Origin: Bradyrhizobium sp. AZCC 2176
Lineage (GTDB): Bacteria > Pseudomonadota > Alphaproteobacteria > Rhizobiales > Xanthobacteraceae
NCBI RefSeq assembly: GCF_036924645.1
Contig: NZ_JAZHRX010000001.1
Span: forward strand, 4,491,501 to 4,555,500
DNA length: 64,000 nucleotides
Reading direction: 5' to 3'
Part shown: positions 17,030 through 43,885 of the stretch, piece by piece
Layout of the letters: each line of letters begins with the position of its first letter
Numbering within the stretch: the stretch's first letter is position 1
The notes under the pieces: model-generated
Seen by the model: only the letters and a program-made list of their open reading frames with translations
Told to the model about the DNA's origin: nothing
The model's database searches: none
Program-made: the position numbers and the translations under genes

Positions 17030-17704
17030 ATGATTGCTGCGGAATACCTCAAGCGCATCGCGGCCTGGTCGCGCGAACTGAACGAACGGGAAATCGAGGT
17101 CGCCCGCGCCGGCATCGTGGAGAAATCCTATCGTGCCAACGAATTCGTTTTCATGCGCGGCGATACCTTCGACTACTGGACCGGCATCGTCACGGGCCTT
17201 GCCCGAATGGGTACCGTGTCGAGCAGCGGCAAGGCCGTGACTTTGGCCGGCATGACCGCGGGGGCCTGGTTCGGGGAGGGCTCCGTGCTCAAGAGCGAGC
17301 CGCGCCGTTACGATGTGGTGGCGTTGCGCGATACAAGGCTGGCGCTGATGGACCGTAGCGCCTTCTTCTGGTTGTTCGAGAACAGCGTCGCCTTCAACCG
17401 CTTTCTGGTCCGGCAGCTCAACGAGCGGGTCGGCCAGTTCATCGGGGCGCTGGAACATGGCCGCACGCTCGATGCCACCAGCCGCGTTGCGCGCTCCATC
17501 GCCTCGCTGTTCAATCCAATCCTGTATCCGGACCTGACGCGTCATCTGGAGATCACCCAGGAGGAGATTGGCGCCTTGTCAGGCCTGTCACGGCAGAATG
17601 CCAACCAGTGCCTGAAGCGGCTGGAGAAGGAGGGCCTGCTTCGACTGGAATATGGCGGGGTGACGATCGTCGATCTCGAAAAGCTGCGCTGTCACGGCGA
17701 GTAA
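17030..17704 (+). CDS. Crp/Fnr-family transcriptional regulator
   Basis: Regulator of 224 residues: an N-terminal cyclic-nucleotide-binding-like beta-barrel (about 20-120, ANEFVFMRGDTFDYWTGIVTG, MTAGAWFGEGSVL), a dimer helix (122-150) and a C-terminal winged helix-turn-helix (about 176-202, ITQEEIGALSGLSRQNANQC). There is no N-terminal cysteine cluster, so it is not an oxygen-sensing FNR or AadR type; the ligand is unknown. The ATG at 17030 gives the usual family length; a TTG at 16949 would add 27 residues of unlikely composition. It diverges from the livG-ligase operon, which I infer to be its target, with the palindrome at 16941 as the obvious candidate site. Confidence 0.82.
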   Translation: MIAAEYLKRIAAWSRELNEREIEVARAGIVEKSYRANEFVFMRGDTFDYWTGIVTGLARMGTVSSSGKAVTLAGMTAGAWFGEGSVLKSEPRRYDVVALRDTRLALMDRSAFFWLFENSVAFNRFLVRQLNERVGQFIGALEHGRTLDATSRVARSIASLFNPILYPDLTRHLEITQEEIGALSGLSRQNANQCLKRLEKEGLLRLEYGGVTIVDLEKLRCHGE

Positions 17705-17779
17705 GACTGGTCCCGACGTCCTCGAAATTGAGCAAAGGCAGCATGTTGCCGATCGCTCTCGTTGTTGTGTTCGCGGGCG

Positions 17780-17837
17780 ATACGGTACCGTATTGAAAAT
17801 CGAAACTGCAAGTGGTATTGATACGGTACCGTATCAA
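17780..17837. promoter_or_regulatory. Two palindromic operators before the Rieske oxygenase gene
   Basis: The perfect palindrome ATACGGTACCGTAT occurs at 17780-17793 and again at 17821-17834, where it is extended to a 20-bp perfect palindrome (TTGATACGGTACCGTATCAA, 17818-17837). Centre-to-centre distance is 41 bp, close to four helical turns, so two dimers would sit on one face. The form resembles TetR-family operators. The second copy is 44 bp before the oxygenase ATG. Confidence 0.7.
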
Positions 17838-17881
17838 GCGAGTGATCGGTTTTGAGACCACAGCCAGCCGGAGGATGTCCG

Positions 17882-19036
17882 ATGAGCAGGCAGGATCAGA
17901 TCAACCTTTTGAAGCGGCTGTTGCACTACGTGGAGACCCGGACCACGGCGATGGCGGAGAGTCCCTGGCGCAACGAGGTGTCGGCCTACACGGACGCAGA
18001 GCGCCTCGCCGAGGAACAGCGGGTTCTGTTTCGCAGGCATCCGCTGGTCATGGGGTTCGCTTCGGACTGGCCCGCGCCGGGGAGCTTTAGCACCGACGAC
18101 CATGCCGGTTTGCCCGTTCTGATCGTGCGGGGACGCGACAGCAGATTACGCGCGTTCCTGAACGTGTGTCGCCACCGCGGCGCCAAGGTAGCCGAGGGCT
18201 GCGGCAAGGCGCGGCTGTTCTCGTGCCCCTATCATGCCTGGACCTACGATCTCGCCGGCGAGCTGATGGGCATTCCCGACGAGCGCTGTTTTCCCGACGT
18301 GCGCAGCGAACGCGCGTCGCTCGTCGAACTACCGCTGTGTGAAAAGCACGGCCTTGTGTGGGTGATCCCGACCGCGGACGGTTCGACGAATTTCGACATC
18401 GATCCATGGCTTGGGGGACTCGCGGAGGAGCTCGCTTCGTTTGGATTTGCGTCCTGGTCGTTCTACGACCGGCGCGTGATTCCGGAGACCATGAACTGGA
18501 AGATTGTCGTGGATACGTTCAACGAGGGCTACCACGTCGGCTTCCTGCACCGCGATTCCCTGCGCGACATCCTGCATGGCAACGTGACCGATTTCGAGGC
18601 GTTCGGTCTCAACCACCGTCTGACGTTTCCGCGCAGGAAACTCGAGCGGCTCAAGGCCGAGCCTGAGGACAAATGGGACTTGATGTGGAATACGACGCTC
18701 GTCTATTCGCTGTTTCCCAACACCGTTCTCCTCGTGCAGGGCGACCATGTCGAACTCGCGCGGGCGTTTCCCCGCGAGGGACGCGCGGATCGCTCTGTCA
18801 TGGACCTTGGGCTTTACGTGCCGAAGGCGCCGAGTACCGAGGAAGAGCGCATCCATTGGGACAGGAACATGCAGCTCGTCCTCGATGTTGTGACCGGCGA
18901 GGATTTCCCGGCCGGGCGGAGCATTCAGGTCGGCCTGACTTCCGGCGCGCAGACGCACACCGTCTACGGCCGCAACGAGCCGGCCATGATCCACTACCAT
19001 CAGTCGATGCGGACGGCGCTCGGCCTAAGGGTCTGA
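17882..19036 (+). CDS. Rieske non-heme iron oxygenase, alpha subunit
   Basis: Aromatic-ring-hydroxylating or demethylating oxygenase alpha subunit, 384 residues. The N-terminal Rieske domain has the [2Fe-2S] ligands Cys96-x-His98 (CRHRG) and Cys115-x2-His118 (CPYHAW). The C-terminal catalytic domain has the mononuclear iron histidines His218 and His223 in NEGYHVGFLH; the residue that normally bridges electrons, Asp three before the first His, is Glu215 here. GGAGG seven bases before the ATG at 17882 sets the start. No ferredoxin, reductase or beta subunit is adjacent, so electron-transfer partners must lie elsewhere. Two TetR-like palindromes upstream suggest induction by a small molecule. 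The substrate is unknown. Confidence 0.87.
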   Translation: MSRQDQINLLKRLLHYVETRTTAMAESPWRNEVSAYTDAERLAEEQRVLFRRHPLVMGFASDWPAPGSFSTDDHAGLPVLIVRGRDSRLRAFLNVCRHRGAKVAEGCGKARLFSCPYHAWTYDLAGELMGIPDERCFPDVRSERASLVELPLCEKHGLVWVIPTADGSTNFDIDPWLGGLAEELASFGFASWSFYDRRVIPETMNWKIVVDTFNEGYHVGFLHRDSLRDILHGNVTDFEAFGLNHRLTFPRRKLERLKAEPEDKWDLMWNTTLVYSLFPNTVLLVQGDHVELARAFPREGRADRSVMDLGLYVPKAPSTEEERIHWDRNMQLVLDVVTGEDFPAGRSIQVGLTSGAQTHTVYGRNEPAMIHYHQSMRTALGLRV

Positions 19037-19118
19037 AATTGAGCCACTTTCGGATTAGACTCTGCCTCTAGCGGATGCTATGGCCTGCGCCGCGCAGGCG
19101 CTTCCGGCGCAGCCGGGA

Positions 19119-19163
19119 CTTGAGGCTCAGAGGCTTGAGGCTCAGTGACCTGGGGCTCAATTG
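19119..19163 (+). repeat. Three imperfect 15-bp tandem repeats before gmd
   Basis: Units CTTGAGGCTCAGAGG, CTTGAGGCTCAGTGA and CCTGGGGCTCAATTG stand head to tail, ending 35 bp before the gmd ATG. The shared core is TKRGGCTCA. They may be a leader feature or a slipped-strand product. Confidence 0.55.
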
Positions 19164-19198
19164 TCCCCGGGCCTGTCCGGCCGGCTCTTGGAGAGACT

Positions 19199-28793: not shown

Positions 28794-29502
28794 TCTTCTC
28801 GCCATCGATGCCTTGCGCGCCGGCTACGGCGAAGCCGTGGTGCTGCCTTCGATGTCGCTGTCCTTGGGCGAGGGGCAGGTGCTGGCACTGCTCGGGCGTA
28901 ACGGCACCGGCAAGACCACGCTGATCAATTCGATCGTCGGCATCACCCGCCGTTTTGGCGGCAGCCTTGCGCTCGGCGGGCTCGACATCACGGCGATGCG
29001 GCCGGACCAGCGGGCGCGGGCAGGAATCGGCTGGGTGCCGCAGGAACGCAACATCTTCCGCTCGCTGACGGTCGAGGAAAACATGACCGCGGTGGCCCAG
29101 CCCGGCCTGTGGACCGTCGAGAAGGTTTACGAAATGTTTCCGCGGCTGAAGGAACGCCGCAACAATTTCGGCAACCAGCTCTCCGGCGGCGAGCAGCAGA
29201 TGCTGGCGATCGGCCGCGCGCTGACCCTCAATCCGAAGGTTCTGCTGCTGGACGAGCCGACCGAAGGCCTGGCGCCGATCATCGTCGAGGAACTACTCCG
29301 GGCGCTGGGCACCATCACCCGTTCCGGGGGCATCTGCTCGATCATCGTCGAGCAGAATGCGCAAAAGATTCTGGGGCTGGCCGATCGGGTTGTGATATTG
29401 GAACGCGGCGCAATCGTGCATGATGCGCCAAGCCACGCGTTGAAGGCCGATCCTGCGGTGCTCGAACGCTATCTCGGCGTCGCCGGCGCCACTGCGCACT
29501 AG
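28786..29502 (+). CDS. LivF-like ABC transporter ATPase (second system)
   Basis: ATPase of 238 residues, LivF type: Walker A GRNGTGKTT, LSGGEQQMLAIGRAL, Walker B LLLDEPTEGLAPIIVEEL, and IIVEQNAQKILGLADR. It overlaps livG by eight bases. WVPQERNIFRSLTVEENM is the LivF-type variant of the Q loop. With the four genes before it this makes a full binding-protein-dependent importer. Confidence 0.9.
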   Translation: MPDLLAIDALRAGYGEAVVLPSMSLSLGEGQVLALLGRNGTGKTTLINSIVGITRRFGGSLALGGLDITAMRPDQRARAGIGWVPQERNIFRSLTVEENMTAVAQPGLWTVEKVYEMFPRLKERRNNFGNQLSGGEQQMLAIGRALTLNPKVLLLDEPTEGLAPIIVEELLRALGTITRSGGICSIIVEQNAQKILGLADRVVILERGAIVHDAPSHALKADPAVLERYLGVAGATAH

Positions 29503-29522
29503 ATTTGATGGGAGTTGAGACC

Positions 29523-30641
29523 ATGCAGAGAACAAAGCCCCCGTTCCGCGCCGACGAGGTCGGCAGTCTGTTGCGGCCGCAGCGCATCAAGGAGGCGCGC
29601 GCCAAGCTCGAAAAGGGCGAGATCACGGCGGACGACTTGCGCAAGGCCGAGGACCTGGAGATCGAGAAGGTCGTGCACAAGCAGGCCTCGATCGGCCTGA
29701 AGCTTGCAACCGACGGTGAATTCCGCCGCTCCTGGTGGCATTTTGATTTTCTCGCCAAGCTCGGCGGCTGCGAGCTCTTCCACCCCGAGACTGGTATTCA
29801 GTTCGCAGGCGTCGAGACCCGCCATGACGCCGTCCGCGTGATCGGCAAGCTCGATTTCCCCGACAACCACCCGATGCTGGATCACTTCCGCTTCCTGAAG
29901 AAGCATGCCGACACCGCCCACGTCACGCCGAAGATGACGATTCCGTCGCCCGCGGTGCTGCATTTCCGCGGCGGCCGCAAGTCGATCTCGCAGGAGGTCT
30001 ATCCCGATCTTGAGGAGTTCTTCCTCGACCTCGGCAAGACCTATCGCAAGGCGGTGAGGGCATTCTACGATGCCGGCTGCCGCTACCTGCAGTTCGACGA
30101 TACCGTGTGGGCGTATCTCTGCTCGCAGGACGAGTTGCAGAAGGCGCGCGAGCGCGGCGACAATCCTGATGGTCTGCAGGAAATCTACGCGCGCGTCATC
30201 AACTACGCGCTGGCGGAGCGGCCGGCCGACATGGTGGTCACCACGCATGTTTGCCGCGGCAATTTCCGCTCGACCTGGATCTCGTCCGGCGGCTACGAGC
30301 CGGTGGCCGAGACCATGCTGGCCGGCACCAATTACGACGGCTATTTTCTCGAATATGATTCCGACCGCGCCGGCGGCTTCGAGCCGCTGCGCTATTTGCC
30401 GAAGGGCAACAAGGTGGTCGTGGTCGGCGTCATCACCTCGAAATTCGGCGAATTGGAGAAGAAGGACGACATCAAGCGCCGCCTCGAGGAGGCCGCCAAG
30501 TTTGCCCCGCTCGACCAGCTCGCGGTCTCGCCGCAATGCGGCTTTGCCTCGACCGAGGAAGGCAACATCCTGTCCGAGGAAGAGCAGTGGGCGAAGCTGA
30601 GCCTCGCGGTCGAAGTCGCCAACGAGGTATGGGGGAAGTGA
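29523..30641 (+). CDS. Cobalamin-independent methionine synthase family protein (MetE C-terminal-like)
   Basis: Protein of 372 residues that matches only the C-terminal catalytic half of MetE (MetE itself is about 750). Zinc-ligand pattern is present: His and Cys in TTHVCRGN and Cys in VSPQCGFAS; the opening FRADEVGSLLRPQ and the acceptor loop TDGEFRRSWWHFDF are typical of the YxjG/YxjH-like branch. Such proteins transfer methyl groups to homocysteine from folate or other donors, or act on other thiols. GGGAG precedes the ATG. It lies 20 bp after livF and probably belongs to the same operon, linking this importer to a methylated or sulfur compound. Confidence 0.85.
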   Translation: MQRTKPPFRADEVGSLLRPQRIKEARAKLEKGEITADDLRKAEDLEIEKVVHKQASIGLKLATDGEFRRSWWHFDFLAKLGGCELFHPETGIQFAGVETRHDAVRVIGKLDFPDNHPMLDHFRFLKKHADTAHVTPKMTIPSPAVLHFRGGRKSISQEVYPDLEEFFLDLGKTYRKAVRAFYDAGCRYLQFDDTVWAYLCSQDELQKARERGDNPDGLQEIYARVINYALAERPADMVVTTHVCRGNFRSTWISSGGYEPVAETMLAGTNYDGYFLEYDSDRAGGFEPLRYLPKGNKVVVVGVITSKFGELEKKDDIKRRLEEAAKFAPLDQLAVSPQCGFASTEEGNILSEEEQWAKLSLAVEVANEVWGK

Positions 30642-30687
30642 CGCGCGCCGGCGCGCGCCCCGGGATGACGGCGCGTCAGTCACACCG

Positions 30688-32439
30688 TCACTTCTCCGCC
30701 AGATAGACCTCACCAAGCAGCGACGAGTTCGACCACGGCACCTGCTTGCCCTTGGTCGCGGCGACCACCTCGGCCCGTACCCGCGTCAGCATCTGCTGCA
30801 CTTCCAGCCCGGGCGTGCCGATGTGGCGGGTCAGCGCGGCCGAGAACGGGCTGTTGGCGCCTTCGCCGTCCAGCGCGACCTGTCCAGGCGCGGTGGCGAA
30901 CGCGATCAACGTTCCCGCCCCATGCGTCGCGCCGGCGCCGAGCGTAGCGGGCGCGGCAAGCCCCGAGCCGGCTTCGATGCCGCGGGCTGGACCTGCGGAA
31001 GCCAGCTTCGGCGCCATCGGGTTGTTGCGGCAGGCATCCAGGATCAGGATGTTGGTGCGGACCTGATCGTCCAGGCCGGCCGTGATCGTGTCCATGTCCA
31101 TCATCGCATCCGTCATGCCGCTGCCGGTCTGAAACTGGATATCGATCGGCGCCAGGTAATTGCGGCCGTCGATCTGTACGCCGTGACCGGCGTAGTAGAC
31201 CACTGCCACCTGCGCCCGCGCGGCATCGCGCAGGAAGTCGCGGATCGTCGCCTGCATCGCCCTGCGGTCGAGGTCGGAGCCCTCGGTCACCACGAAGCCG
31301 ATGTCGCGCAGGCTTTTTGCCATCGCGCGCGCATCGTTGGTCGGATTGGGCAGCGCTCGGACATGCGCATAGGCGCCGTTGCCGATCACCAGTGCGACGC
31401 GCCTGACGGTTTCTCTGTTGGCCTCTGCGCGCTGGCGCTGCTCCGCTGCAGGCGGCGGGGACGGGCTCGCTGCGCCCGTCGGCGAAGCCGGCGCGGCCTT
31501 GCTGGCCGGCGGCGGTGGCGCCGTGGTCGCCGTTCGCGGCGCGGGCGGCACCGTCTCTGACAACAGCGACAGGCGAACTTTTGCGGTTGCCTGGTTGGCC
31601 TTGCTGCCGGCGTCGGAGGCCTTGCCTTCGAGAGCCGCGGCGTAGTCCATTTTGGCGCGGTCGAAATCGCCCTTGGCCTCGTAGGCAAGCGCGCGATGGC
31701 TATAGGCCGAGATCAGCACGCTGCCGGGCGGCGTCATGATGTTGACCGGCGCCTTGGCCTTGGCGAGCCGGATCGCTTCGGTCGTATCGGCGATGGCGCG
31801 ATCGAAGTCGCCTTTGGCGCGCCAGATCACCGCGCGGCTGGTCAATGGTTGCGGCAATTCCGGATCGAGCCGGATCGCTTCGTTGATGTCGGCCAGCGCG
31901 CCATCGAGATCGCCGAGCGCGCGTTTCGATATCCCGCGGTTCTGCCACGAAAAGGCGGACGGCGGACCGAGCCTGATCGCTTGATCGTAGTCGGCGATCG
32001 CCTTGGCGAATTCGCCCTTGTTGCGCCAGGCGTTGCCGCGGTTGTGAAAGATGATGCCGCTTGGCGGCCCTATCCGCAGCGCGTCGTTGAAGTCGGCGAT
32101 CGCGATGTCGTCCTCGCCCTTGTCGTAGTAGGCCGAGCCGCGCAGATTGTAGAGGGCGACGCTGGGGTGCAGGCGGATCGCCTCGCCGGCGTCCGCGATC
32201 ACCTGGTCGTAGTTGCCTTTCTTGTTCCAGCCGACCGCGCGCCAGAAGTAGATCGTCGCGAGCTTCTCGCCGGAAAATACCTTCAGTGCGATGATCTTGT
32301 TGCAGGCGCCGATCTGCTGATCTGCCGGCGTGGTGTCGGTGGTGCAGAGCGGCCCAAGCTGGTTGCGCGGTTGGGCGAGGGAAGGCGCCGACCACAACGC
32401 GGCGGCAAGCAACGTGAGTATCAGGATTGCGCGGCGCAT
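30688..32439 (-). CDS. Secreted TPR-caspase-like (metacaspase-type) protein
   Basis: A 583-residue protein: signal peptide MRRAILILTLLAAALW (cleaved after LAQ), about six TPR-like repeats (residues about 40-300, e.g. GNYDQVIADAGEAIRLHPS, GEFAKAIADYDQAIRLGPP), a Pro/Ala-rich linker, and a caspase-fold p20 domain from about residue 347 (RVALVIGNGAY). The catalytic dyad is intact: His419 in YYAGHG and Cys470 in DACRNN. Such bacterial metacaspase-like proteins cleave after Arg or Lys. The ATG at 32439 follows GGGGAC. It converges on the MetE-like gene and is the intact version of the decayed copy at 38690-39369. Substrate and role are unknown; a periplasmic place is inferred from the signal peptide. 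Confidence 0.85.
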   Translation of the reverse strand: MRRAILILTLLAAALWSAPSLAQPRNQLGPLCTTDTTPADQQIGACNKIIALKVFSGEKLATIYFWRAVGWNKKGNYDQVIADAGEAIRLHPSVALYNLRGSAYYDKGEDDIAIADFNDALRIGPPSGIIFHNRGNAWRNKGEFAKAIADYDQAIRLGPPSAFSWQNRGISKRALGDLDGALADINEAIRLDPELPQPLTSRAVIWRAKGDFDRAIADTTEAIRLAKAKAPVNIMTPPGSVLISAYSHRALAYEAKGDFDRAKMDYAAALEGKASDAGSKANQATAKVRLSLLSETVPPAPRTATTAPPPPASKAAPASPTGAASPSPPPAAEQRQRAEANRETVRRVALVIGNGAYAHVRALPNPTNDARAMAKSLRDIGFVVTEGSDLDRRAMQATIRDFLRDAARAQVAVVYYAGHGVQIDGRNYLAPIDIQFQTGSGMTDAMMDMDTITAGLDDQVRTNILILDACRNNPMAPKLASAGPARGIEAGSGLAAPATLGAGATHGAGTLIAFATAPGQVALDGEGANSPFSAALTRHIGTPGLEVQQMLTRVRAEVVAATKGKQVPWSNSSLLGEVYLAEK

Positions 32440-32620
32440 CAGGTCCCCGTGATTGGCGGTCGCAGTGGCGGATACAACTTTGTTGCCCCCTGCGGAACGG
32501 CGGTTCAAGCAAGGACGTCGATCCATGCCGGTCGCAGACGGCGGCATTTCCCCTGTTGGGCAGATGGTGGTGGGACAGGCAGGTCATCCCATCCTGCCCA
32601 CCGGTGCTTCGCCGCGAATT
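32440..32620. promoter_or_regulatory. Duplicated promoter segment, copy 1
   Basis: This segment upstream of the caspase-like gene matches 39364-39535 at both ends (GCATCAGGTCCC..., TTTGTTGCCCCC, GCATTTCCCC, GTTGGGCAGATGGTGGT and CTGCCCACCGGT). It contains GGGCAG (32558-32563) and CTGCCC (32594-32599) as the arms of an imperfect palindrome. The rest of the gap to 32775 shows no gene. Confidence 0.6.
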
Positions 32621-32775
32621 CCTTTATCGCTGGACTGAACGGATAGTGGCTTGATTAGCCCGCGTGTGGCCAGCTGTTGGCCATTGGAGCGGAGGCGGAG
32701 GGAACCGCTTCAATTGGTGTTGAGCCTAGCCTAGCGATGGTAGCGGCGCCGCTGAAGCCCATGTAGCGCAGACGA

Positions 32776-35373
32776 TCACCGATCGGACGGTTGCCACGGC
32801 TCCGCTTTTGTAACGTAGAACCAGTAATCGCCATAGCGACTGCTATCGCCCCACCGCTTGAGATCGAAGTGCCAAGCCAGGATGTCGCGGCGTTCCACAA
32901 CGTTAGCCGGTACGATGTATAGATAACGACTGATGCTGCCCTTCTCCAGGCGCGGAGCAAAGACGAAGCCGAAGGGCAGCGGCGGAAGGATCGGGTGAAT
33001 GAGATCTTGGTACTGTTCCACGCCACTCTGTGTGATGATGGCATCGAAGTCCGCCACGTGAAGCGAGGGAATGTCGTCGCGAAGAGGCTGGTCGTCGTCG
33101 ACTACGAGGAAGCCGGACATTCGACGACCGCCGAATACAAAAGTCTCGTCGTTCTTTTCCGCCGGAGTTACCGCGACCAACGTATCGATGGGAGAGAGGC
33201 GATGGGCCATCCATGGAACGCAAACAAAGAGCACTGCCGCCGCAATTAGTCCAATTAAGCCATTTCGTGACAGCGAGGAACTCGACTGCAACTTCGCCGG
33301 TACCAAGGCCACGTTGCTCATTCCCAGCGCAAAGAACAGCGCCATCATCGGCTGGCTCGCGGCGAGAGAACGTGCGCCATCATCAAAGTAGATCAAGGAG
33401 GACGACACCACAATGCTTGCCCAGACAAGACTCCAGAAAGTAAGTTCGACAGCTTCGGCTCTTCTCGCAGCGCCGTACAAAAGCCCGATGAGGGCCATCG
33501 CAGTCAATACGCCGCGAAGTAGCCAGTCAGGCGTGTTGATCTGTCCATAGCCTCTCCAAATTACCCCAGGAAATTGCGTAGCGAAGGCCTGAGCGCTATC
33601 GGCGAGTCTCCGGAAAAGGATTCCGGGCTGCGCGCGGAAATTCTTCCAAGCTGCGGAATACAGTTGCCGCGCACGGTCATCTTCGGAGCCTTCAAGCGGG
33701 GTGCCTTCAGCGGCAAGTTTTTTGGCGCAGCCGTCCCATGTTGTCCCGATCGACAATCCGCAGAGCACGTAAGCAAAGTTCCCGGTGCCGGGACTAGGAC
33801 CTGTCGCATAAGCTCTTTGCAGCAGCGAATTGAGCCCGAAAACCCCGATCAAGGTGCAGATCGTTATGGCGCAAATCCTGATTTTCGCTGCGGCGCCTTT
33901 CCCGAATTGCCAAACCAGCCATACCACCAAGGCAGGGATCGTGAACATGCTTCCCATTCGCGTCGTCAGGGCTACGGTCGTCATCGCAAACGCCACCAGC
34001 GCGGCATTTACCGAGTGATCACGGAAAGCCTTGATGAAAAACGGGATCGACAACAGCGCCCAGAACAACCCAAACGGTTCAGTGAGAGTAGTGGGCACAA
34101 AGTAGCGGGCGTAAATGTATGTCAGCGCAAAGAAGGTTATGCCGGCCCAGACGCCCCGCCACGCGATGATGGCATGGGTCGCGAAGCAGAGGGCCCCGGC
34201 CACCAGACAGGCTTGCAGGATAAGCATGAACTGCAGCGAGGAATTACCAAAAACTAGAAGGGCGGACCTGAAAGCCGCAGCCAATGGCCGCCGCAGTGCC
34301 AAGTCGTTCCAGACGCCATCCTTCACCTGATCGAAGGCAGCTGCGAGATATCCGCGCGCGTCTGAAAATGGAACCAAACCGCCAATGCTCGAGGGATTCG
34401 GGTCACCCGGTCTGAGAATTCCCGCCCACATAGCGCTGCTACAAAAAACGAAGGCGCAAGCGGTGATCGGAAATCCGCACCAAGCGAGAAGCCGTCGCAG
34501 CGACTGCTCCGTCTGATCCAGCAACGGCCGATAGTGAGGTGCGCTCGAGCCGACGAGCCAAGTCATTGCCGTCCCGAGGCCTGCCAGCATCAAAAGCAAG
34601 TAGGCGAAATAGGGCTCATTCCTGCCCGCCCATTCGGCGACCGGCGACCAACGAATCAATGCAGTGGTTGGCAGGGCCCAACCCGCTGCCAACGCATAGA
34701 GGGTGGACACGAGATACACCGCCGAAGCGGTCAAGCCAGCCCAGCAAAGTCCAAACAATATCAGGTACGGCGCTCTTATTACGATCGCCTTCGGCATGTC
34801 CCCAAAGCGTGCCGCGAGCGATCTGAGCGGACCAGAGTAAATGGAATAGCCGAGCAGGGCACTCAAAATCCCCAGTGCATAGCTGACCCAGGTTCTCGGC
34901 CGTACATTGTACCGAATTGTTGCTATTGTTTCAGGACCATTCGTCACGCCTGGAGGAAGTGAGAATATCACCTGAGCGCCCCAGTGGCTGAAGCCAGTCG
35001 TCTTGCCCGTCCGAATCTCTTCGTGCAACGTGTGCGGAGGCCCCATCTCGCGGCCATTGATGCGTAACTCAAGAAACGACTGAAAAGGCTTCTCGCCGTT
35101 GTCGCCGTTCGGCGGCCGCCTCCACCACTGAGCCCGCCCTTCTTGCGGGACGTTCAATATCAGCGAAGCCCGCGCCGGATTCGTCTCTGTTGCGAATGGG
35201 CCGGCAAATTTGACTTCCTTCGACCAGGCACCGAGCTGAAGCGCCAGCGACACCAGCGCCAACACGACGAGCGGCCAGAATATTAGCTTGGCACCGACCA
35301 GCATCCAGTCGCGGAAGCAGCGGACAGAAGCCGACTTGATGGCGATTCCGGAAGTCCGCAACAGCTCCTGCAT
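32776..35373 (-). CDS. Large polytopic membrane protein of unknown function
   Basis: An 865-residue protein with one early membrane helix (LIFWPLVVLALVSLALQLG), a soluble beta-rich domain of about 140 residues (SLILNVPQEGRAQWW to RYNVRPRTW), then about ten further helices, and a soluble C-terminal domain of about 150 residues. The layout resembles membrane-bound (GT-C or oligosaccharide-modifying) proteins of surface glycan loci, but no motif allows a firm family call. It starts at the ATG 35373, two bases after the upstream methyltransferase stop; the longer open frame that continues to 36072 is a shadow of that methyltransferase. It is the last gene of the four-gene set bracketed by the caspase copies. 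Confidence 0.65.
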   Translation of the reverse strand: MQELLRTSGIAIKSASVRCFRDWMLVGAKLIFWPLVVLALVSLALQLGAWSKEVKFAGPFATETNPARASLILNVPQEGRAQWWRRPPNGDNGEKPFQSFLELRINGREMGPPHTLHEEIRTGKTTGFSHWGAQVIFSLPPGVTNGPETIATIRYNVRPRTWVSYALGILSALLGYSIYSGPLRSLAARFGDMPKAIVIRAPYLILFGLCWAGLTASAVYLVSTLYALAAGWALPTTALIRWSPVAEWAGRNEPYFAYLLLMLAGLGTAMTWLVGSSAPHYRPLLDQTEQSLRRLLAWCGFPITACAFVFCSSAMWAGILRPGDPNPSSIGGLVPFSDARGYLAAAFDQVKDGVWNDLALRRPLAAAFRSALLVFGNSSLQFMLILQACLVAGALCFATHAIIAWRGVWAGITFFALTYIYARYFVPTTLTEPFGLFWALLSIPFFIKAFRDHSVNAALVAFAMTTVALTTRMGSMFTIPALVVWLVWQFGKGAAAKIRICAITICTLIGVFGLNSLLQRAYATGPSPGTGNFAYVLCGLSIGTTWDGCAKKLAAEGTPLEGSEDDRARQLYSAAWKNFRAQPGILFRRLADSAQAFATQFPGVIWRGYGQINTPDWLLRGVLTAMALIGLLYGAARRAEAVELTFWSLVWASIVVSSSLIYFDDGARSLAASQPMMALFFALGMSNVALVPAKLQSSSSLSRNGLIGLIAAAVLFVCVPWMAHRLSPIDTLVAVTPAEKNDETFVFGGRRMSGFLVVDDDQPLRDDIPSLHVADFDAIITQSGVEQYQDLIHPILPPLPFGFVFAPRLEKGSISRYLYIVPANVVERRDILAWHFDLKRWGDSSRYGDYWFYVTKAEPWQPSDR

Positions 35374-35375
35374 AC

Positions 35376-36128
35376 CTACACTCGCTCCAGCACAACCATC
35401 ATCCGAAATGCCAGATGCTTTCGGAAAATAGCGGGCACCATGTTCTCGAATGCCAGCGTCGGGCTTACCAGTGCCGCTGGAATCAATGACCATTTCTGAA
35501 ATCCGCCGCTCATCGGATAGGCAATCAGGCTGTGCCAGTCCACACTTCGGACGCGCAACGATGGAATCGTCTGTTCGACACGCTGGCGCGCCGGCGTGGT
35601 GGCAAACAGCAGCGAGGGAATTGCCTGATTGGAATCGAACGGGTCTCGATTGGGGTTGATCGTTACCGGCGCGAATGGGTCGACGTTCATGTCTACGGGC
35701 TCTTCGTGAAAGCGATCGTAGAATCTTTGCGCCAGCGTTGTCATGGCCGGTTCGATCATCACGAGTCGTCCGCCGGGCCGCAATACGCGCGACGCTTCCT
35801 CGAGGAATTCGATCGGGCGCTCGAGATGATGCATGACGTCGAGCATGACCACGCCGGCAAAAAAACAGTTCTGGAATGGAAGTTGGTGAGCGTCGGCGAC
35901 CACGTCGATACCCGGAAAGGACTGGATATCGGCGGAGACGACGTCGGGATGAGTTTCCTTGATGTGGGCGGTGCCGCCGCCAATGTCGAGGACGGCGCCT
36001 TCGGGACAGTTTTCGAAAAGCTGCCGATGGTAGTCCTGGTAGATGAGCCTGAGCGCTTTCTTGCGCTCCCACAGTTCTCGATGGGTGATCTGGCGTTGGC
36101 TCAAACCGATCGCGTTCGTTGTGGTCAT
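35376..36128 (-). CDS. SAM-dependent methyltransferase (class I)
   Basis: Methyltransferase of 250 residues. SAM-binding motif I VLDIGGGTAHIKE, motif II-like DIQSFPGIDVVADAHQLPF, and the post-motif VVMLDVMHHLERPIEFLEEA and VLRPGGRLVMIEPA are all clear and place it with UbiE/Ubi-type or polysaccharide O-methyltransferases. The ATG at 36128 is chosen (SAM motif then at about residue 44); another at 36173 overlaps the fusion gene. It lies 11 bp after the fusion gene stop and two bases before the membrane-protein gene, so all three are one transcript. Substrate unknown; a glycan or its lipid carrier is likely from context. Confidence 0.78.
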   Translation of the reverse strand: MTTTNAIGLSQRQITHRELWERKKALRLIYQDYHRQLFENCPEGAVLDIGGGTAHIKETHPDVVSADIQSFPGIDVVADAHQLPFQNCFFAGVVMLDVMHHLERPIEFLEEASRVLRPGGRLVMIEPAMTTLAQRFYDRFHEEPVDMNVDPFAPVTINPNRDPFDSNQAIPSLLFATTPARQRVEQTIPSLRVRSVDWHSLIAYPMSGGFQKWSLIPAALVSPTLAFENMVPAIFRKHLAFRMMVVLERV

Positions 36129-36139
36129 GGGCTTGCCGA

Positions 36140-37603
36140 TCAAACGGCTTTGAGTTTGCGATAGGCGAACCACACCATTTTCAACAGCAGCCAGCCGTCT
36201 CGAAATCGCGATATCTGGGTTTCGCCGAAGGTACGCGCCTTGTAGTGGATCGGTATCTCGATGATCTTGAGATTTTGCTTGGCTGCGCCGAAGATCAGAT
36301 CGAAATCGCCGAACGGGTCGAAATTGCCGAAATAGTCGCGCTCCCGCGCCAGCACCTCGTAATCCTTTCGCAACAGAACCTTGGTGCCGCAGAGTGTGTC
36401 CGTCAGCCGCGTATTCACCAGATAACTGAACATGTAGGCAAAGCAGCGGTTGGCGGCGAAATTAAGCGGCCGCATCGCCTCGTTTTCCATGGGGTAGATC
36501 AGGCGGGTTCCGTTGACGAATTCGGCCTTTCCGCTCTCGATGATCGCATGATACTTCGGAAGCATTTCCGGGGGCATCGTCAGGTCGGCATCCAGAATCA
36601 TCAGCACGTCGCCGCTCGCGGCGGCAAAGCCCTTGCGGACCGCGTCTCCTTTGCCCTTGCCCTCCTGCTTCATGACCTTGATATCCCAGCTATCCCTGTA
36701 GGCATCGCGTACCCGCTCGCACTCCTCAAAAGTGCCGTCGCTGGAATTCCCCTCGACGAACAGAATTTCCTGGCTCGCTGCAAATCTCGGCATTCGCAGT
36801 ACAGCGTTTTCGATATTTCCCTTCTCGTTGCGGCAGGGGATGATGATGCTCACCGATAGTTTCCGATCCGGAAACGGCAGCACCGGACGTCCGACGATAT
36901 AGGTTCGCAAGCACAGTTTTCTGATGCCCGGCAGCGGCGCTACGAACCGGTTGATGAACGGACCAAGTCCGAACCATCGCCGCGGCAGCAATTGTCTTTG
37001 CTCCTGATTGATCACCTCGAAATCCGCAAGGTCCATGAGATTCAGAAAGTCAGTGGTGGCGATGAAATTGATTCTCGGTTGCTTGCTGCGCAAACGCAGC
37101 AGTTCGGCAAATTTCAGGATCGGCTCCCACAGATGGGAGTAATAGGCGATGATGATCCGCGTGGAGGGCGTGCACAAATGGTGCACTTGTCGCAAGGTGC
37201 CGTCGATGTCCTCGAACATGCCGATGGTGTCGGCGATCACGATGTAATCGAAGGGGCCCTCGATCCCGGCCAGCGTCGCCGGATCTTCAACGTCGCCCAT
37301 GACGAAGTGCAGATGGGGGAACGCCTCGCGCGTCTTGGCGATGGTCCTGGCGCTGAAATCAATGCCGACTCCGTAGGAGGGCTCCAGCGCCGCGAGCAGA
37401 CGCGCGGTGCCGCAGCCCAGTTCCAGAACCCGCTTGCCGGGCGGGATGAGAAATCGCATGAACTTGCGATCGTCCTCGTGATAGGCGGCATTGAACTTGC
37501 GCCAGCGCTCCAGGTCGTCGAGATTAGTGTCGACGTGTTCGAGTAATTCCAGTTTTCGCGGGCTGTTCAGCTGTAGCGGAACGGCAGATTGCGCTAGATT
37601 CAT
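36140..37603 (-). CDS. Methyltransferase-glycosyltransferase (GT2) fusion
   Basis: A 487-residue protein with two domains. Residues about 30-200 are a class I methyltransferase (VLELGCGTARLLAALEPSYG, FVMGDVEDPATLAG, FDYIVIADTIGMFEDIDG). Residues about 250-487 are a GT2 transferase of the dolichol-phosphate-mannose-synthase type: SVSIIIPCRNEKGNIENA, EILFVEGNSSDGTFEECERV, KGDAVRKGFAAASGDVLMILDADL with the DxD metal site. No membrane helix pair is seen at the C-terminus. It could methylate a polyprenyl-linked sugar and add the next one. GAGG precedes the ATG at 37603; an ATG 30 bases upstream has no ribosome-binding site. Sits in the middle of the bracketed four-gene set. Confidence 0.82.
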   Translation of the reverse strand: MNLAQSAVPLQLNSPRKLELLEHVDTNLDDLERWRKFNAAYHEDDRKFMRFLIPPGKRVLELGCGTARLLAALEPSYGVGIDFSARTIAKTREAFPHLHFVMGDVEDPATLAGIEGPFDYIVIADTIGMFEDIDGTLRQVHHLCTPSTRIIIAYYSHLWEPILKFAELLRLRSKQPRINFIATTDFLNLMDLADFEVINQEQRQLLPRRWFGLGPFINRFVAPLPGIRKLCLRTYIVGRPVLPFPDRKLSVSIIIPCRNEKGNIENAVLRMPRFAASQEILFVEGNSSDGTFEECERVRDAYRDSWDIKVMKQEGKGKGDAVRKGFAAASGDVLMILDADLTMPPEMLPKYHAIIESGKAEFVNGTRLIYPMENEAMRPLNFAANRCFAYMFSYLVNTRLTDTLCGTKVLLRKDYEVLARERDYFGNFDPFGDFDLIFGAAKQNLKIIEIPIHYKARTFGETQISRFRDGWLLLKMVWFAYRKLKAV

Positions 37604-37770
37604 TGCCGCCTCAGATGGGGGACTTGCGTCCATATTGATCGATCAGTCAAAATGCGGGGCGTGGCTTACGCTTCGGATTTTACCGTGACTTAGACCAATC
37701 TTGTAGACTGAACCGGCTTCGAACCGCAACCACAGGTGTGGCGGGTCTTCGTGACCAACATTTGCGGCGA

Positions 37771-38613
37771 TCAGCCTACGCGCGCGATGACATTTACGCT
37801 TTCACCGCTGGCAACCAGTCCCTGCAACTCCTTGGCAGCGGATGGCAGCCGCTGAAGAGTCCGTTCATTGTAAAACGAGTAGCCATTAGGAATGAAGTAA
37901 GAAAGAAGCTGGTCCAGCGATGCACCCCGCTCCTCTAGCACATAGGGTGCCAGTTCCATCACGAAGATTGGGCGCGTATCGTGAAGCAACGAAGCCGCGC
38001 CTTGCAGCACGTCACATTCAAAGCCGTCCACGTCAAGTTTAACCAGCTGAACCTTGCGATCGGTACGCTCCGCCAGAATGCTATCGAGGCTCCGCGCCTT
38101 TGCCGAATTCGTCTGCATTTCGCGGCCTAGGTGCTTGGCGTGCAGTCCAGCTTCTGCTGCGAGCGGCCAACTTGAATAAATTGCGTCTGGAACGGAAGTC
38201 CCGTCGGCGGCGGTCAGGAAGCAATGGAACGCTTCCACGCGGGAGGCAAGCGACGGATTGAGGTCGAGGTTGCGTCGAAGCTTGCGGAATGCAAATTCGG
38301 TCGGCTCAAACGCCATTACCCGTCCCTTGGGACCAACGAGATTGGCCAAGCGCAATGTATGCGCCCCGATATTGGCTCCGATATCGAGCACAAGAGAGGA
38401 CGGCTCGGTCAATTTGCTCAAAGCGATTGCGGTGCTGCGCTCGAAAATTCCGCCGAGATAAATGGCAAAATCTATTCCCTGTGAGAGGTCCAGATCATAG
38501 GTAATGCCGCCCCTGACCACGATCTGCCGATCGGTTCGCCCCAGCAGCGTGCGCCCGGCATGAACTGCATGATAGATCATGCGGGCAGCACCGATTTTGT
38601 GGGCGGTCTTCAT
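37771..38613 (-). CDS. FkbM-family methyltransferase
   Basis: FkbM-type SAM methyltransferase of 280 residues. Typical VLDIGANIGAHTLRLANLVG, VMAFEPTEFAFRKLRRNL, LVKLDVDGFECDVLQGAA and PIFVMELAPYVLE are present. Family members often O-methylate sugars or glycan ends. The ATG at 38613 is chosen; the longer frame to 38790 would reach into the decayed caspase copy and includes non-family sequence. First gene of the bracketed set, followed by the fusion gene after a 167-bp gap. Confidence 0.82.
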   Translation of the reverse strand: MKTAHKIGAARMIYHAVHAGRTLLGRTDRQIVVRGGITYDLDLSQGIDFAIYLGGIFERSTAIALSKLTEPSSLVLDIGANIGAHTLRLANLVGPKGRVMAFEPTEFAFRKLRRNLDLNPSLASRVEAFHCFLTAADGTSVPDAIYSSWPLAAEAGLHAKHLGREMQTNSAKARSLDSILAERTDRKVQLVKLDVDGFECDVLQGAASLLHDTRPIFVMELAPYVLEERGASLDQLLSYFIPNGYSFYNERTLQRLPSAAKELQGLVASGESVNVIARVG

Positions 38614-38689
38614 CAATGTGTTCCAGCAGGTGGGTCGGCGAAGAGCTATGCCTAGCCGATGAGCGATTCCGTGTAAATTGAAGAGCGGT

Positions 38690-39369
38690 CCCTCCCCAGC
38701 AGCGACGAATTCGACCACGGCACCTGCTTGCCGTTGGTGGCCAAGCCGATCCAGCTTCGATGCCGCGGGCCGGTCCGGCGGACGCAACATTCGGCGCTAT
38801 CGGGTTGTTGCGGCAGGCGTCGAGGATCAGGAGGTCGGTGCGGACCTGATCGTATCCATGTCCATCATCGTGTCTGTCATGCCATTATCGGCCTGAAACC
38901 TGGTATCGATCGGCACCAGGTAATTGCGGCCATCGACCGGAATGCCGTGGCCCACCGCGAACTGCGACCGCGCCGCTTCGCACAGGAAGTCGCGGATCGC
39001 GGCCCGATGCGCAGCGCGTCGTTGAAAATCGGCGGTCGCGATGTCGTACTCGCCCTTGTCGTAACCGGCTGAGCCGCGGAGATTGTAGGCGGCGACACTG
39101 GGCTGCGGCCGGATCGCTTCGCTGGCGTCCGCGATCACCTGCGTGTAGTTGCCCTTCTTGTTCGAGCTGACCGCCCGCCAGAAGTAAATCGACGCCAGCT
39201 TCTCGCCGGAGAACACTTTCAGCGCGATGCTCTTGTTGCGGGCATTGATCTGCTGGTCGGTCGGCGTCGTATCGGCTGTGCAGAGCGGACCGAGTTGGTT
39301 GCGCGATTGGGTGGGCGAAGGCGCCGACCACAGCGCGGCGGCGAGCAGGGTAAGGTCAGGATCGCGCAT
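38690..39369 (-). pseudogene. Decayed duplicate of the TPR-caspase-like gene
   Basis: Fragments match the intact gene at 30688 in the same order. The N-terminal part (RNQLGPLCTADTTPTDQQIN, IALKVFSGEKLASIYFWRAV and the first TPRs) matches 32070-32439; then an internal loss of about 815 bp removes the rest of the TPRs and linker; then pieces matching the catalytic domain (IRDFLCEAARSQFAV, YLVPIDTRFQADNGMTD) and, after another loss of about 200 bp, the 3' end (matching SNSSLLGEV, at 38693-38742). The DACRNN coding is still visible but out of frame. The longest remaining frame is 180 residues (38827-39369). Confidence 0.85.
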
Positions 39370-39535
39370 CAGGTCCCGTTGATTGCCGGCCGCAGTGGTG
39401 GATACCGCTTTGTTGCCCCCGGCTGGACGGGTTCACGGGTAGATGTCCGGCGTTGTCGGGCTTGGGCTCGGCATTTCCCCGTTGGGCAGATGGTGGTAGG
39501 ATATACCGGTCATCCGAATCTGCCCACCGGTACTT
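39364..39535. promoter_or_regulatory. Duplicated promoter segment, copy 2, with interrupted palindrome
   Basis: Second copy of the segment at 32440-32620. It holds a cleaner palindrome: GGGCAGAT (39484-39491) and ATCTGCCC (39518-39525), with inner GGAT/ATCC pairs. It lies between the decayed caspase copy and the methyltransferase ATG at 39566, so it probably serves as a divergent promoter. Confidence 0.55.
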
Positions 39536-39565
39536 CCCAAACCCCCTTTCGGAATTTCTGGCCTG

Positions 39566-40921
39566 ATGAAGAACGACCAGATCCTCAGCCAGATAACGGA
39601 GTTCTGCCGCCAGGCCGACATGGCGGAGAGCACGTTTGGCCGCCGGGCCGTCAATGACGGCAAGCTGGTGCACCGGCTGCGCGAGGGCAAGCGCATCACC
39701 ATCGACACGCTGGATCGCATCCAGGCCTATATCGCGGCGTCCACACCGGGCGGGGTGCCGCCGCCACGCGGCCTCGAAGTGCCGCCCGAAAAGCGCGACC
39801 CCAGAGGCAATTTCCGCTTTTTCGAGAACCGCCAGAAATACCTGCTGTTCGTCCATACCTGCAGCGAAAAGCGGGTAATTGCCGAGCGGGTGGCATTGGA
39901 GCTTTCCAGCCTGCACCCGCGCCCGCCGGCGCTTCGGGTATTCGACGCCGGCGTCGGTGACGGCACGGTGCTGGCGCGGGTGATGCGCTCGATGCACGGC
40001 CGCTTTCCCCACATGCCGTTCTATATCGCCGGCAAGGAATTGAGCCTGGAGGACGTCCGCCTGACGCTCGACAAGGTGCCCGACCGACTGTTCGAGCACC
40101 CGGCGACCGTCTTCGTCCTCACCAACATGTACTACGCCGAGGCACCCTGGCTGACCCCGGCTTCGCCCTCCGCGGCCGCGGGCATGATCTGGCATGAGGT
40201 CGCCTTGCGAGGGGCCTCGTCCGGCGAATTCGAGGCCCAGATCGCCGAATTGGGTCCGTTTCTGGAACAAAACTGGCGAGCCAATATCAGCCCCAAATCG
40301 GGCATGCCGACCTATGAACGGCCCGTGGCACTGGTCGTGTACCGGGAGGACCACCGGTTCCTGCTTGATTCGATCATCCCCCGGGCGGGCCGGACCGAGG
40401 CCAATTTCGACCTTGTGATCGCTTCCCAGCCCTATCGGGCCAAATCCTCTGTGAATTTCCGCGCCAAGCGGATTATTGCGCCATTGGCCCGGAGTTTGCG
40501 GGCAGGGGGCCGTTTGATTGGAATTCACTCCCACGGGCAGGATCCGGGCCTGGAAATCATCCAGTCGGTGTGGCCGGGAGAAAATCCTTTCGCCGTGAGC
40601 CGTCATGAGCTATTGCGCGCCGTGAAATACGAGCTGGGATCGGCCGGGCGCGACCTTAACTTTAATGCCTACGCCGATAACCGTTCCATCTTCCGTTATG
40701 ATATGGAAGCGCTGCCCAACGAGGTCACCGGCCAGATCGGAACCTCGACGGCCTTTGCAGCGTGGAATGCGGCGGTGTATGTCGCCCAGATCGAAGACGA
40801 CCGGTTGACGGAAATGACAGAAAACAGCCGAACCCTCGATGCCACCAGGGAGGTTCTGCGCAAGCATAATGGGCTTTGGTTTTACGACGAATCCTACGTC
40901 ATTTCGCGCCGTCGCGACTGA
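39566..40921 (+). CDS. SAM-dependent methyltransferase-like protein with N-terminal HTH-like segment
   Basis: A 451-residue protein. Residues 1-60 (ILSQITEFCRQADMAESTFG) look like a small helix-turn-helix or LacI/regulator-type head. Residues 115-350 resemble a class I methyltransferase: LRVFDAGVGDGTVLARVM as motif I, FYIAGKELSLEDVRL, and later IIAPLARSLRAGGRLIGIHSHG as the post-motif. The C-terminal 80 residues are not assigned. It is followed by metK after 60 bp, then ahcY, all in one direction, so it may be a dedicated consumer of SAM or a regulator of that pathway. Its upstream segment is the second copy of the caspase-gene promoter. Confidence 0.7.
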   Translation: MKNDQILSQITEFCRQADMAESTFGRRAVNDGKLVHRLREGKRITIDTLDRIQAYIAASTPGGVPPPRGLEVPPEKRDPRGNFRFFENRQKYLLFVHTCSEKRVIAERVALELSSLHPRPPALRVFDAGVGDGTVLARVMRSMHGRFPHMPFYIAGKELSLEDVRLTLDKVPDRLFEHPATVFVLTNMYYAEAPWLTPASPSAAAGMIWHEVALRGASSGEFEAQIAELGPFLEQNWRANISPKSGMPTYERPVALVVYREDHRFLLDSIIPRAGRTEANFDLVIASQPYRAKSSVNFRAKRIIAPLARSLRAGGRLIGIHSHGQDPGLEIIQSVWPGENPFAVSRHELLRAVKYELGSAGRDLNFNAYADNRSIFRYDMEALPNEVTGQIGTSTAFAAWNAAVYVAQIEDDRLTEMTENSRTLDATREVLRKHNGLWFYDESYVISRRRD

Positions 40922-42451: not shown

Positions 42452-43885
42452 ATGACCACCGCCGCTGCCAAGAAGCCCGCCTTCACCGATTACATCGTCA
42501 AGGACATCTCGCTCGCCGAGTTCGGCCGCAAGGAAATCTCGCTGGCCGAGACCGAAATGCCGGGCCTGATCGCAACGCGCGAGGAATACGGCCCGAAGCA
42601 GCCGTTGAAGGGCGCCCGCATTGCCGGCTCCCTGCACATGACAATCCAGACCGCGGTCCTGATCGAGACGCTGGCAGCACTTGGCGCCGATATCCGCTGG
42701 GTGTCCTGCAACATCTATTCGACGCAGGACCATGCGGCAGCCGCGATCGCGGCCGCCGGCATTCCGGTGTTCGCCGTGAAGGGCGAAACGCTCGCCGAAT
42801 ACTGGGACTACACCGCAAAGCTGTTCGACTGGCATGGCGGCGGCACGCCCAACATGATCCTCGATGACGGCGGCGATGCCACCATGCTGGTGCATGCCGG
42901 CTACCGCGCCGAGCAGGGCGACACCGCCTTCCTCGACAAGCCGACGTCGGAGGAAGAGGAAATCTTCTATGCGCTCGTCAAGCGCCTCCTGAAGGAGAAG
43001 CCGAAGGGGTACTTCGCCGAGATCGCCAGGAACATCAAAGGCGTCTCGGAGGAGACCACGACGGGCGTGCACCGCCTCTACGATATGGCGAACAAGGGCA
43101 CGCTGCTGTTTCCTGCCATCAACGTCAACGACAGCGTCACCAAGTCGAAGTTCGACAACCTCTATGGCTGCCGTGAATCGCTGGTCGACGGCATCCGCCG
43201 CGGCACCGACGTGATGATGTCCGGCAAGACCGCGATGGTCGCTGGCTTCGGCGACGTCGGCAAGGGTTCGGCCGCTTCGCTGCGCCAGGCCGGCTGCCGC
43301 GTCATGGTTTCCGAAGTCGATCCGATCTGCGCGCTGCAGGCGGCGATGGAAGGCTATGAAGTCACGACGATGGAAGACGCCGCACCCCGCGCCGACATCT
43401 TCGTCACCGCGACCGGCAACAAGGACATCATCACCATCGACCACATGCGCGCGATGAAGGATCGCGCCATCGTCTGCAACATCGGCCACTTCGACAACGA
43501 GATCCAGATCGCCGGTCTCCGTAACCTGAAGTGGACCAACATCAAGCCGCAGGTCGACGAGATCGAATTCCCCGACAAGCACCGCATCATCCTGTTGTCG
43601 GAAGGCCGCCTCGTGAACCTCGGCAACGCCATGGGCCATCCGTCCTTCGTGATGTCGGCGTCGTTCACCAACCAGACGCTGGCGCAGATCGAGCTCTGGG
43701 CCAACAACAAGGACGGCAAGTACGAGAAGAAGGTCTACGTGCTGCCGAAGACGTTGGACGAGAAGGTTGCGCGCCTGCATCTCGCCAAGATCGGCGTCAA
43801 GCTGACCGAGCTGCGCAAGGACCAGGCCGACTATATCGGCGTCAAGCCGGAAGGCCCGTTCAAGTCGGATCATTACCGGTATTGA
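42452..43885 (+). CDS. ahcY: Adenosylhomocysteinase
   Basis: Hydrolyses S-adenosylhomocysteine to adenosine and homocysteine, using bound NAD. The 477-residue protein has the bacterial insertion near residue 150. Signatures: [29 protein letters not shown], the NAD Rossmann motif [16 protein letters not shown], and C-terminal [20 protein letters not shown] with the substrate-closing lysine and tyrosine (DHYRY end). With metK and the methyltransferase it completes the SAM cycle in one direction. Confidence 0.97.

Follow-up and report, generated by a model that had tools for sequence, protein, structure and literature searches.

The window, by which the whole analysed stretch of 64,000 nucleotides of Bradyrhizobium sp. 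AZCC 2176 DNA is meant, contains a gene for a caspase-like protein with tetratricopeptide repeats (TPR) and, at higher coordinates, a second copy of the same gene. Four minus-strand genes, here called the module, lie between the copies. The arrangement is enclosed by a metE-like gene on the left and by a gene for a conserved protein, here called HTH, on the right, and the interval between these two border genes is referred to as the slot. The features of the slot in the window are the following:

29505..30641, plus strand: metE-like gene (Meth_synt_2, PF01717), conserved left border of the slot, with a match at E ≤ 1e-120 in 141 of 146 genus genomes
30688..32439, minus strand: intact gene for a 583-residue protein with TPR and a caspase domain (Peptidase_C14, PF00656, E = 4.7e-45)
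32440..32610, no strand assigned: left copy of the caspase/HTH leader, homologous to 39370-39536, with a TGGGCAG...CTGCCCA element (32557-32600)
32611..32775, no strand assigned: left joint between the caspase leader and the module; 32446-32792 does not align with the B. tropiciagri locus L188 (joints compared by eye)
32776..35373, minus strand: GTmem, putative membrane glycosyltransferase of 865 residues, whose homologues are named glycosyltransferase family 39, RgtA/B/C/D-like in some sources
35376..36173, minus strand: MT1, SAM-dependent methyltransferase (PF08241, Methyltransf_11)
36140..37633, minus strand: MTGT2, fusion of a methyltransferase and a GT2 glycosyltransferase (PF00535 and PF13489), with an AglJ-like match far below the cut-off
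37771..38613, minus strand: FkbM methyltransferase (PF05050, TIGR01444); the start at 38613 is assumed, as the listed open reading frame to 38790 enters the pseudogene
38691-39369, minus strand: decayed second caspase copy, recognized from self-comparison, gaps, a site test, and codon-position counts
39370..39536, no strand assigned: second copy of the leader, directly before HTH, with the TGGGCAG...CTGCCCA element at 39483-39526
39566..40921, plus strand: gene for HTH, a conserved 451-residue protein, which forms the right border of the slot, precedes metK and ahcY, and has a match at E ≤ 1e-60 in 145 of 146 genus genomes

Self-comparison of the window shows that the second copy is collinear with the intact caspase gene and its leader and lies on the same strand. 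This agrees with a preliminary description of the DNA, according to which the intact gene and its upstream segment are matched, in the same order and orientation, by a degraded copy and a second upstream segment; its coordinates are correct to within a few bases. The best block of the repeat (32064-32610 versus 38999-39536) is 80.7% identical over 548 bp (E ~1e-139), the middle block (30963-31247 versus 38746-38999) is 75% identical over 285 bp (E = 1.5e-55), and a short block (30708-30759 versus 38691-38741) is 90% identical over 52 bp (E = 1.4e-11). The start codons of the intact and second copies are at 32439 and 39369, respectively. The homology ends on the right at 39536, about 30 bp short of the HTH gene, and on the left at 38691, equivalent to a point within the intact gene some 20 bp from its stop end. 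Further caspase-domain matches in the same genome are 31–47% identical at the protein level, whereas the N-terminal stretch of the second copy is 82% identical. The copies are thus much closer to each other than to paralogues elsewhere in the genome, and the duplicated footprint is confirmed.

The Peptidase_C14 match spans residues 346–578 of the intact caspase protein, and its translation contains, as judged by eye, the caspase His and Cys motifs. The gene is seemingly working, with a p20 domain of the metacaspase/orthocaspase type and a predicted His-Cys dyad. The protein is 75–93% identical to those in the loci of 29 relatives (L009-L037), and the window stretch 29000-32509 has 91.5% DNA identity to G230. 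The divergence of the intact copy is slightly greater than that of its neighbours, as the caspase is 85–92% and the metE-like gene 91–94% identical to those of relatives. Because it runs on continuously from the metE-like gene, and its divergence is near that of its neighbours, the intact copy looks native.

The second copy is missing about 0.82 kb and 0.20 kb of the intact sequence. Shorter gaps remove a further 19, 6, and 4 bases, and a single base is inserted. At columns that are invariant in eleven reference rows, it is changed at 33 of 196 first, 30 of 205 second, and 26 of 118 third codon positions. Each of the eleven reference rows carries between 1 and 20 private changes, which fall predominantly at third positions, though this does not hold for all rows. 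On the evidence of the nearly flat distribution of substitutions over codon positions, together with the deletions, the second caspase copy is a pseudogene, which bears out the earlier claim that one copy is degraded.

The decayed copy is 75.9% identical to the caspase of G023 and 74.2% identical to the intact copy, and it scores 507 bits against a copy from another species versus 494 bits against the intact one. At 16 columns, the intact copy deviates from a state common to ten relatives; the decayed copy has the state of the relatives at 12 of them, that of the intact copy at two, and another state at two. In the same count of private sites, single relatives share 0 to 2 with the intact copy. 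The agreement of the decayed copy with the relatives at 12 of the 16 private sites indicates that the split of the two copies probably predates the intact copy's own branch. The first caspase tree included 37 of the 38 rows tried, from 36 loci (G015 had no match), and later trees included 20 and 27 hand-chosen rows, with G182 removed from the last set before alignment. In trees of shared columns, both copies fall within one species group (86/93 and 75/91, neither starred), and their placement inside it is weak.

A segmental duplication in this lineage, followed by the decay of one copy, was among the origins proposed in the preliminary description. It would account for the similarity and collinearity of the copies, and AU tests do not reject their sisterhood (p = 0.132, 0.125, and 0.148). 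However, the decayed copy has just two of the 16 private changes of the intact copy, which is within the range of single relatives, and the caspase of another species matches it equally well or better. In addition, none of the sites of the 20-row alignment is shared by the two copies alone, although the same is true of 6 of the 18 other rows. The relationship of the copies and the decay of one of them stand, but the private-site test disfavours a recent tandem duplication, and we regard an origin within this lineage as highly improbable.

The four intervening genes were previously described as resembling glycan enzymes. They include the GT2 domain of MTGT2, the putative membrane glycosyltransferase GTmem, and three methyltransferase domains; GTmem has no match in Pfam or NCBIfam. 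The GC content of the module is 55–60%, compared to mostly 62–70% around it. Surface glycan pathways that use polyprenyl-phosphate sugars and GT-C enzymes combine a GT2 enzyme, a membrane glycosyltransferase, and methyltransferases. The module is similar to these pathways in its GT2 domain, putative membrane glycosyltransferase, and methyltransferases, and it differs from them in that GTmem lacks a family match. Judging from the domains, the GT2 part may synthesize a lipid-linked sugar, GTmem may transfer it, and the three methyltransferase domains may methylate it. The module enzymes are therefore likely to produce a methylated lipid-linked sugar that goes into a surface glycan. The possibility that the locus is a defence system was rejected: PADLOC matched the caspase in part to its caspase model (2.2e-12) and three methyltransferase proteins to mad2, and assembled no system.

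The gene order in relatives is livF, metE-like, cargo, HTH, metK, and ahcY, and in the typed loci the interval between the metE-like and HTH genes has conserved borders and contents that vary across the genus. Slot contents were typed by tblastn in fetched loci, and other genomes were judged from distances; one typing round, which included L188, G218, G182, G211, G250, and G251, considered only matches longer than 60 residues. For 119 of the 265 genus genomes, the only queries were GTmem, MTGT2, and the decayed copy. The commonest cargo is a single caspase gene, and 85 of 146 genus genomes, including the window's own, have a caspase match that covers no less than 97% of the query (counted by eye, with the slot position checked in fetched loci). 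Each of the ten close species used in the site test has one caspase at the slot. As anticipated in the preliminary description, there are close relatives (G019, G023, G052, G054, and G230) with a single caspase and none of the four module genes between the metE-like and HTH genes. The distance between the border genes is less than 0.8 kb in 27 of 146 genomes (coordinate subtraction, by eye), and the slots of the five that were fetched (L136-L140) are nearly empty. Other occupants include a flavin monooxygenase gene (G031, G217, G102, and G015), transporter genes (G012 and G032), a GDP-mannose dehydratase-like gene (G128), and an open reading frame that is acyltransferase-like by eye (G103 and G028). 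A gene for a TPR-aspartyl protease is located between the caspase and HTH in G024 and G005 (L068:6372-7457 and L122:5052-6140). Tandem caspase copies that are 70–72% identical to the caspase of the window occupy the slot in G047 and G007 (L071 and L072).

In G087 and G125, a 3′ remnant of the caspase adjoins another gene, which is TPR-like by eye. The caspase of G087 is replaced by a gene resembling that of the TPR-aspartyl protease, as judged by eye, and in G125 a shortened protease-like gene runs directly into the final 39 caspase codons (L103 and L104). Caspase fragments of differing identity are scattered over 17 kb in G025 (L110), and a group II intron maturase gene is located amid these fragments. 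A Pfam scan of slot filler, covering 30 of 59 listed open reading frames of at least 180 residues from 16 of 17 genomes, identified a single group II intron maturase but neither a transposase nor an integrase domain; eight of the open reading frames had no match. There is no tRNA gene within the 64-kb window. The HTH protein has no family match in Pfam, NCBIfam, or PADLOC scans, and its likeness to helix-turn-helix proteins and methyltransferases is by eye only; a second gene whose protein is 62% identical to it is located in the same genome at G000:C1:21009-22373. The metK protein is only 57–61% identical to that of the window in seven loci (L157, L160, L167, L285, L287, L289, and L070), in which the adjoining HTH is 93–96% identical, and the remaining metK matches listed for typed loci are 87–98% identical. 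This suggests that the housekeeping gene beside the slot was replaced in the seven loci.

GTmem is present in 6 of 265 genus genomes at E ≤ 1e-30, and MTGT2 in 78 of 265 at E ≤ 1e-50, with the window's own genome included in both counts. Records of B. canariense and B. elkanii also contain GTmem. The slot of B. tropiciagri SZCCT0338 (L188) has the order metE-caspase-GTmem-MT1-MTGT2-FkbM-HTH with a single caspase, and G094 carries these four genes in the L188-type order, but its caspase is decayed. In G218, G182, and G211, the order is metE-MTGT2-caspase-HTH with a near full-length caspase; MTGT2 is the only module gene on the metE side of the caspase in every case seen. Module genes occupy a slot without a caspase in G020 and G127, and also, by matches longer than 60 residues, in G250 and G251. 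MTGT2 follows the metE-like gene in G075, G090, and G132, in which the contigs are broken. In G225, MT1-MTGT2-FkbM is inverted and located about 15 kb from the caspase, whose slot is without the module; the homology of the window to G225 on the FkbM side extends to 38687. The module stretch of G225 corresponds to positions 17702-19188 of the window, which carry a Rieske-type oxygenase-like gene (17852-19036) with matches below the cut-off. In many other genomes, MTGT2 is located away from the slot. The proposal that the arrangement marks a linked function that has since been lost is unsupported, because the slot can hold either the caspase or module genes alone and MTGT2 occurs elsewhere in many genomes; a functional link between caspase and module is likewise unsupported.

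The module of L188 is 93–96% identical to that of G094 in MTGT2 and FkbM, about 89–92% in MT1, and 70–91% in GTmem. In the flanks, the two loci are 74–80% identical in HTH, 84–88% in the metE-like gene, 88–93% in metK, and 86–96% in the next kilobase. The identity shifts inside GTmem and just before HTH. The order is reversed when L188 is compared to the window: FkbM is 68% and the rest of the module 73% identical, whereas the stretch from the metE-like gene to the caspase and HTH are each 83% identical. This reversal speaks for a recent sharing of MT1-MTGT2-FkbM by the species of L188 and G094. Trees of different parts of the module conflict over these two loci: the window groups with G225, L188, and G094 in the MT1 tree (88/97, not starred), whereas L188 and G094 are outside the window's group in the tree of the N-terminal half of MTGT2 (99/98, starred). 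On both flanks, the window is almost equally similar to many relatives, and its neighbours in quick trees are G103 and G028 for the metE-like gene (91) and G031 for HTH (90), neither of which is starred. Therefore, the flanks of the window neither show nor exclude a join. Among the loci, raised homologous recombination in flanking core genes is hinted at by the contrast between module and HTH in L188 and G094 and by the divergent metK of the seven loci.

We infer that the interval between the metE-like gene and HTH-metK may be a cargo slot exchanged by recombination between relatives, in which two diverged caspase alleles were united around the module and the redundant one decayed, and we give this explanation about an even chance of being correct. 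The slot would usually hold one TPR-caspase, or alternatively the glycan module on the 5′ or 3′ side of a caspase, or in place of it. In the lineage of the window, a caspase-left haplotype would have recombined with a caspase-right, or plain caspase, haplotype, bringing two caspase alleles that had diverged beforehand onto a single chromosome, one on each side of the module. The left caspase, continuous with the metE-like gene, would have been kept intact, and the right one, being redundant, would have decayed. Exchange is supported by the existence of haplotypes with a single caspase, with module and caspase, with MTGT2 before the caspase, and with the module but no caspase. It is also supported by the modules of L188 and G094, which are far more alike than their divergence from the module of the window predicts. 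However, L188 and G094 are also alike in metK and beyond, so that the contrast is limited to HTH and the metE side, and HTH may be the odd gene. None of the genomes examined has two intact caspases flanking a module, whether with the same four genes or otherwise, and none has the reciprocal joint at corresponding breakpoints. The window's left joint is unlike those of L188 and G094, and a cross of caspase-left and caspase-right haplotypes was therefore rejected as the exact event and is retained only as a likely route.

The common clade of the two copies would also follow from an old tandem duplication of the caspase and its leader before the radiation of the species group, with the module inserted later and one copy, along with the module if present, lost elsewhere. 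Such an origin fits the observation that each copy keeps its native outer flank while the novel joints are internal, and tandem caspases are known at the slot in G047 and G007. However, the limited identity of those tandem genes to the caspase of the window, and the repeated loss required in ten close species with one caspase each, make it somewhat unlikely. It is nevertheless the main rival, and the form in which the insertion between tandem copies proposed in the preliminary description is retained. A Campbell-type single crossover, in which a circular molecule carrying a caspase and the module integrated into a resident caspase, predicts the repeat-module-repeat layout, and caspase-module haplotypes are available as its source; nevertheless, no integrase, plasmid, or phage gene was noticed between the copies, and we consider this route improbable.

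The exact TGGGCAG-N30-CTGCCCA pattern (spacing of 22–40) occurs at only two places in the genome, 32557-32600 and 39483-39526, and a reversed control gave no matches. The short form GGGCA..TGCCCA precedes the HTH-metK genes in 74 of 91 distinct leaders of relatives, and the spacing is 30–32 in the 88 of 91 leaders that fit a looser pattern. A structured RNA was rejected, as Rfam has no match in the leader (its sole weak match in the window is at 42580), and positions within the arms vary so that pairing is disrupted. For the same reasons, the element looks more like a DNA site of fixed spacing than a structured RNA, and it is possibly an operator. A more speculative, and rather unlikely, extension of exchange at the slot is that the caspase with its long shared leader serves as a handle for recombination at a cassette slot. 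Glycan modules would come and go beside the caspase. Haplotypes with the caspase at the left, right, both, or neither side would then interconvert, and the window would be a preserved intermediate with both. The duplicated leader may also put the caspase and module under a regulator beside metK.

If exchange between relatives formed the locus, it shows how long-standing allelic diversity at such a slot can mimic a duplication with an insertion. The locus is compact and testable, with several combinations of two cargo types within one genus. Many species of the genus lack the caspase-like gene or have it in decayed, duplicated, or displaced form, which argues against an essential role. Among the papers listed by literature searches, none deals with this locus in its title or abstract opening, which is not a claim of its absence in print.

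Metacaspases have been reported to be abundant in Alphaproteobacteria, including rhizobia, and the combination of TPR with Peptidase_C14 in the caspase of the window is shared with prokaryotic metacaspases and orthocaspases (PMC3501461). The caspase of the window has an N-terminal TPR and a signal-like N-terminus, unlike FS pseudo-variants, whose TPR is described as C-terminal (PMC6426788). The protein also differs from those variants in having His and Cys motifs, assigned by eye. Hotspots of horizontal gene transfer that are exchanged by homologous recombination in their flanks were described in 2017 (PMC5635113), and the slot resembles them in its conserved border genes and variable cargo. 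It may also resemble them in lacking transposase or integrase domains, none of which occurs in the scanned filler, and in the signs of recombination within and beside the cargo. By contrast, the slot is seen genus-wide rather than within one species, and in the window it retains a decayed second copy of its usual occupant. Exchange slots are already known, and the window is one more documented case.
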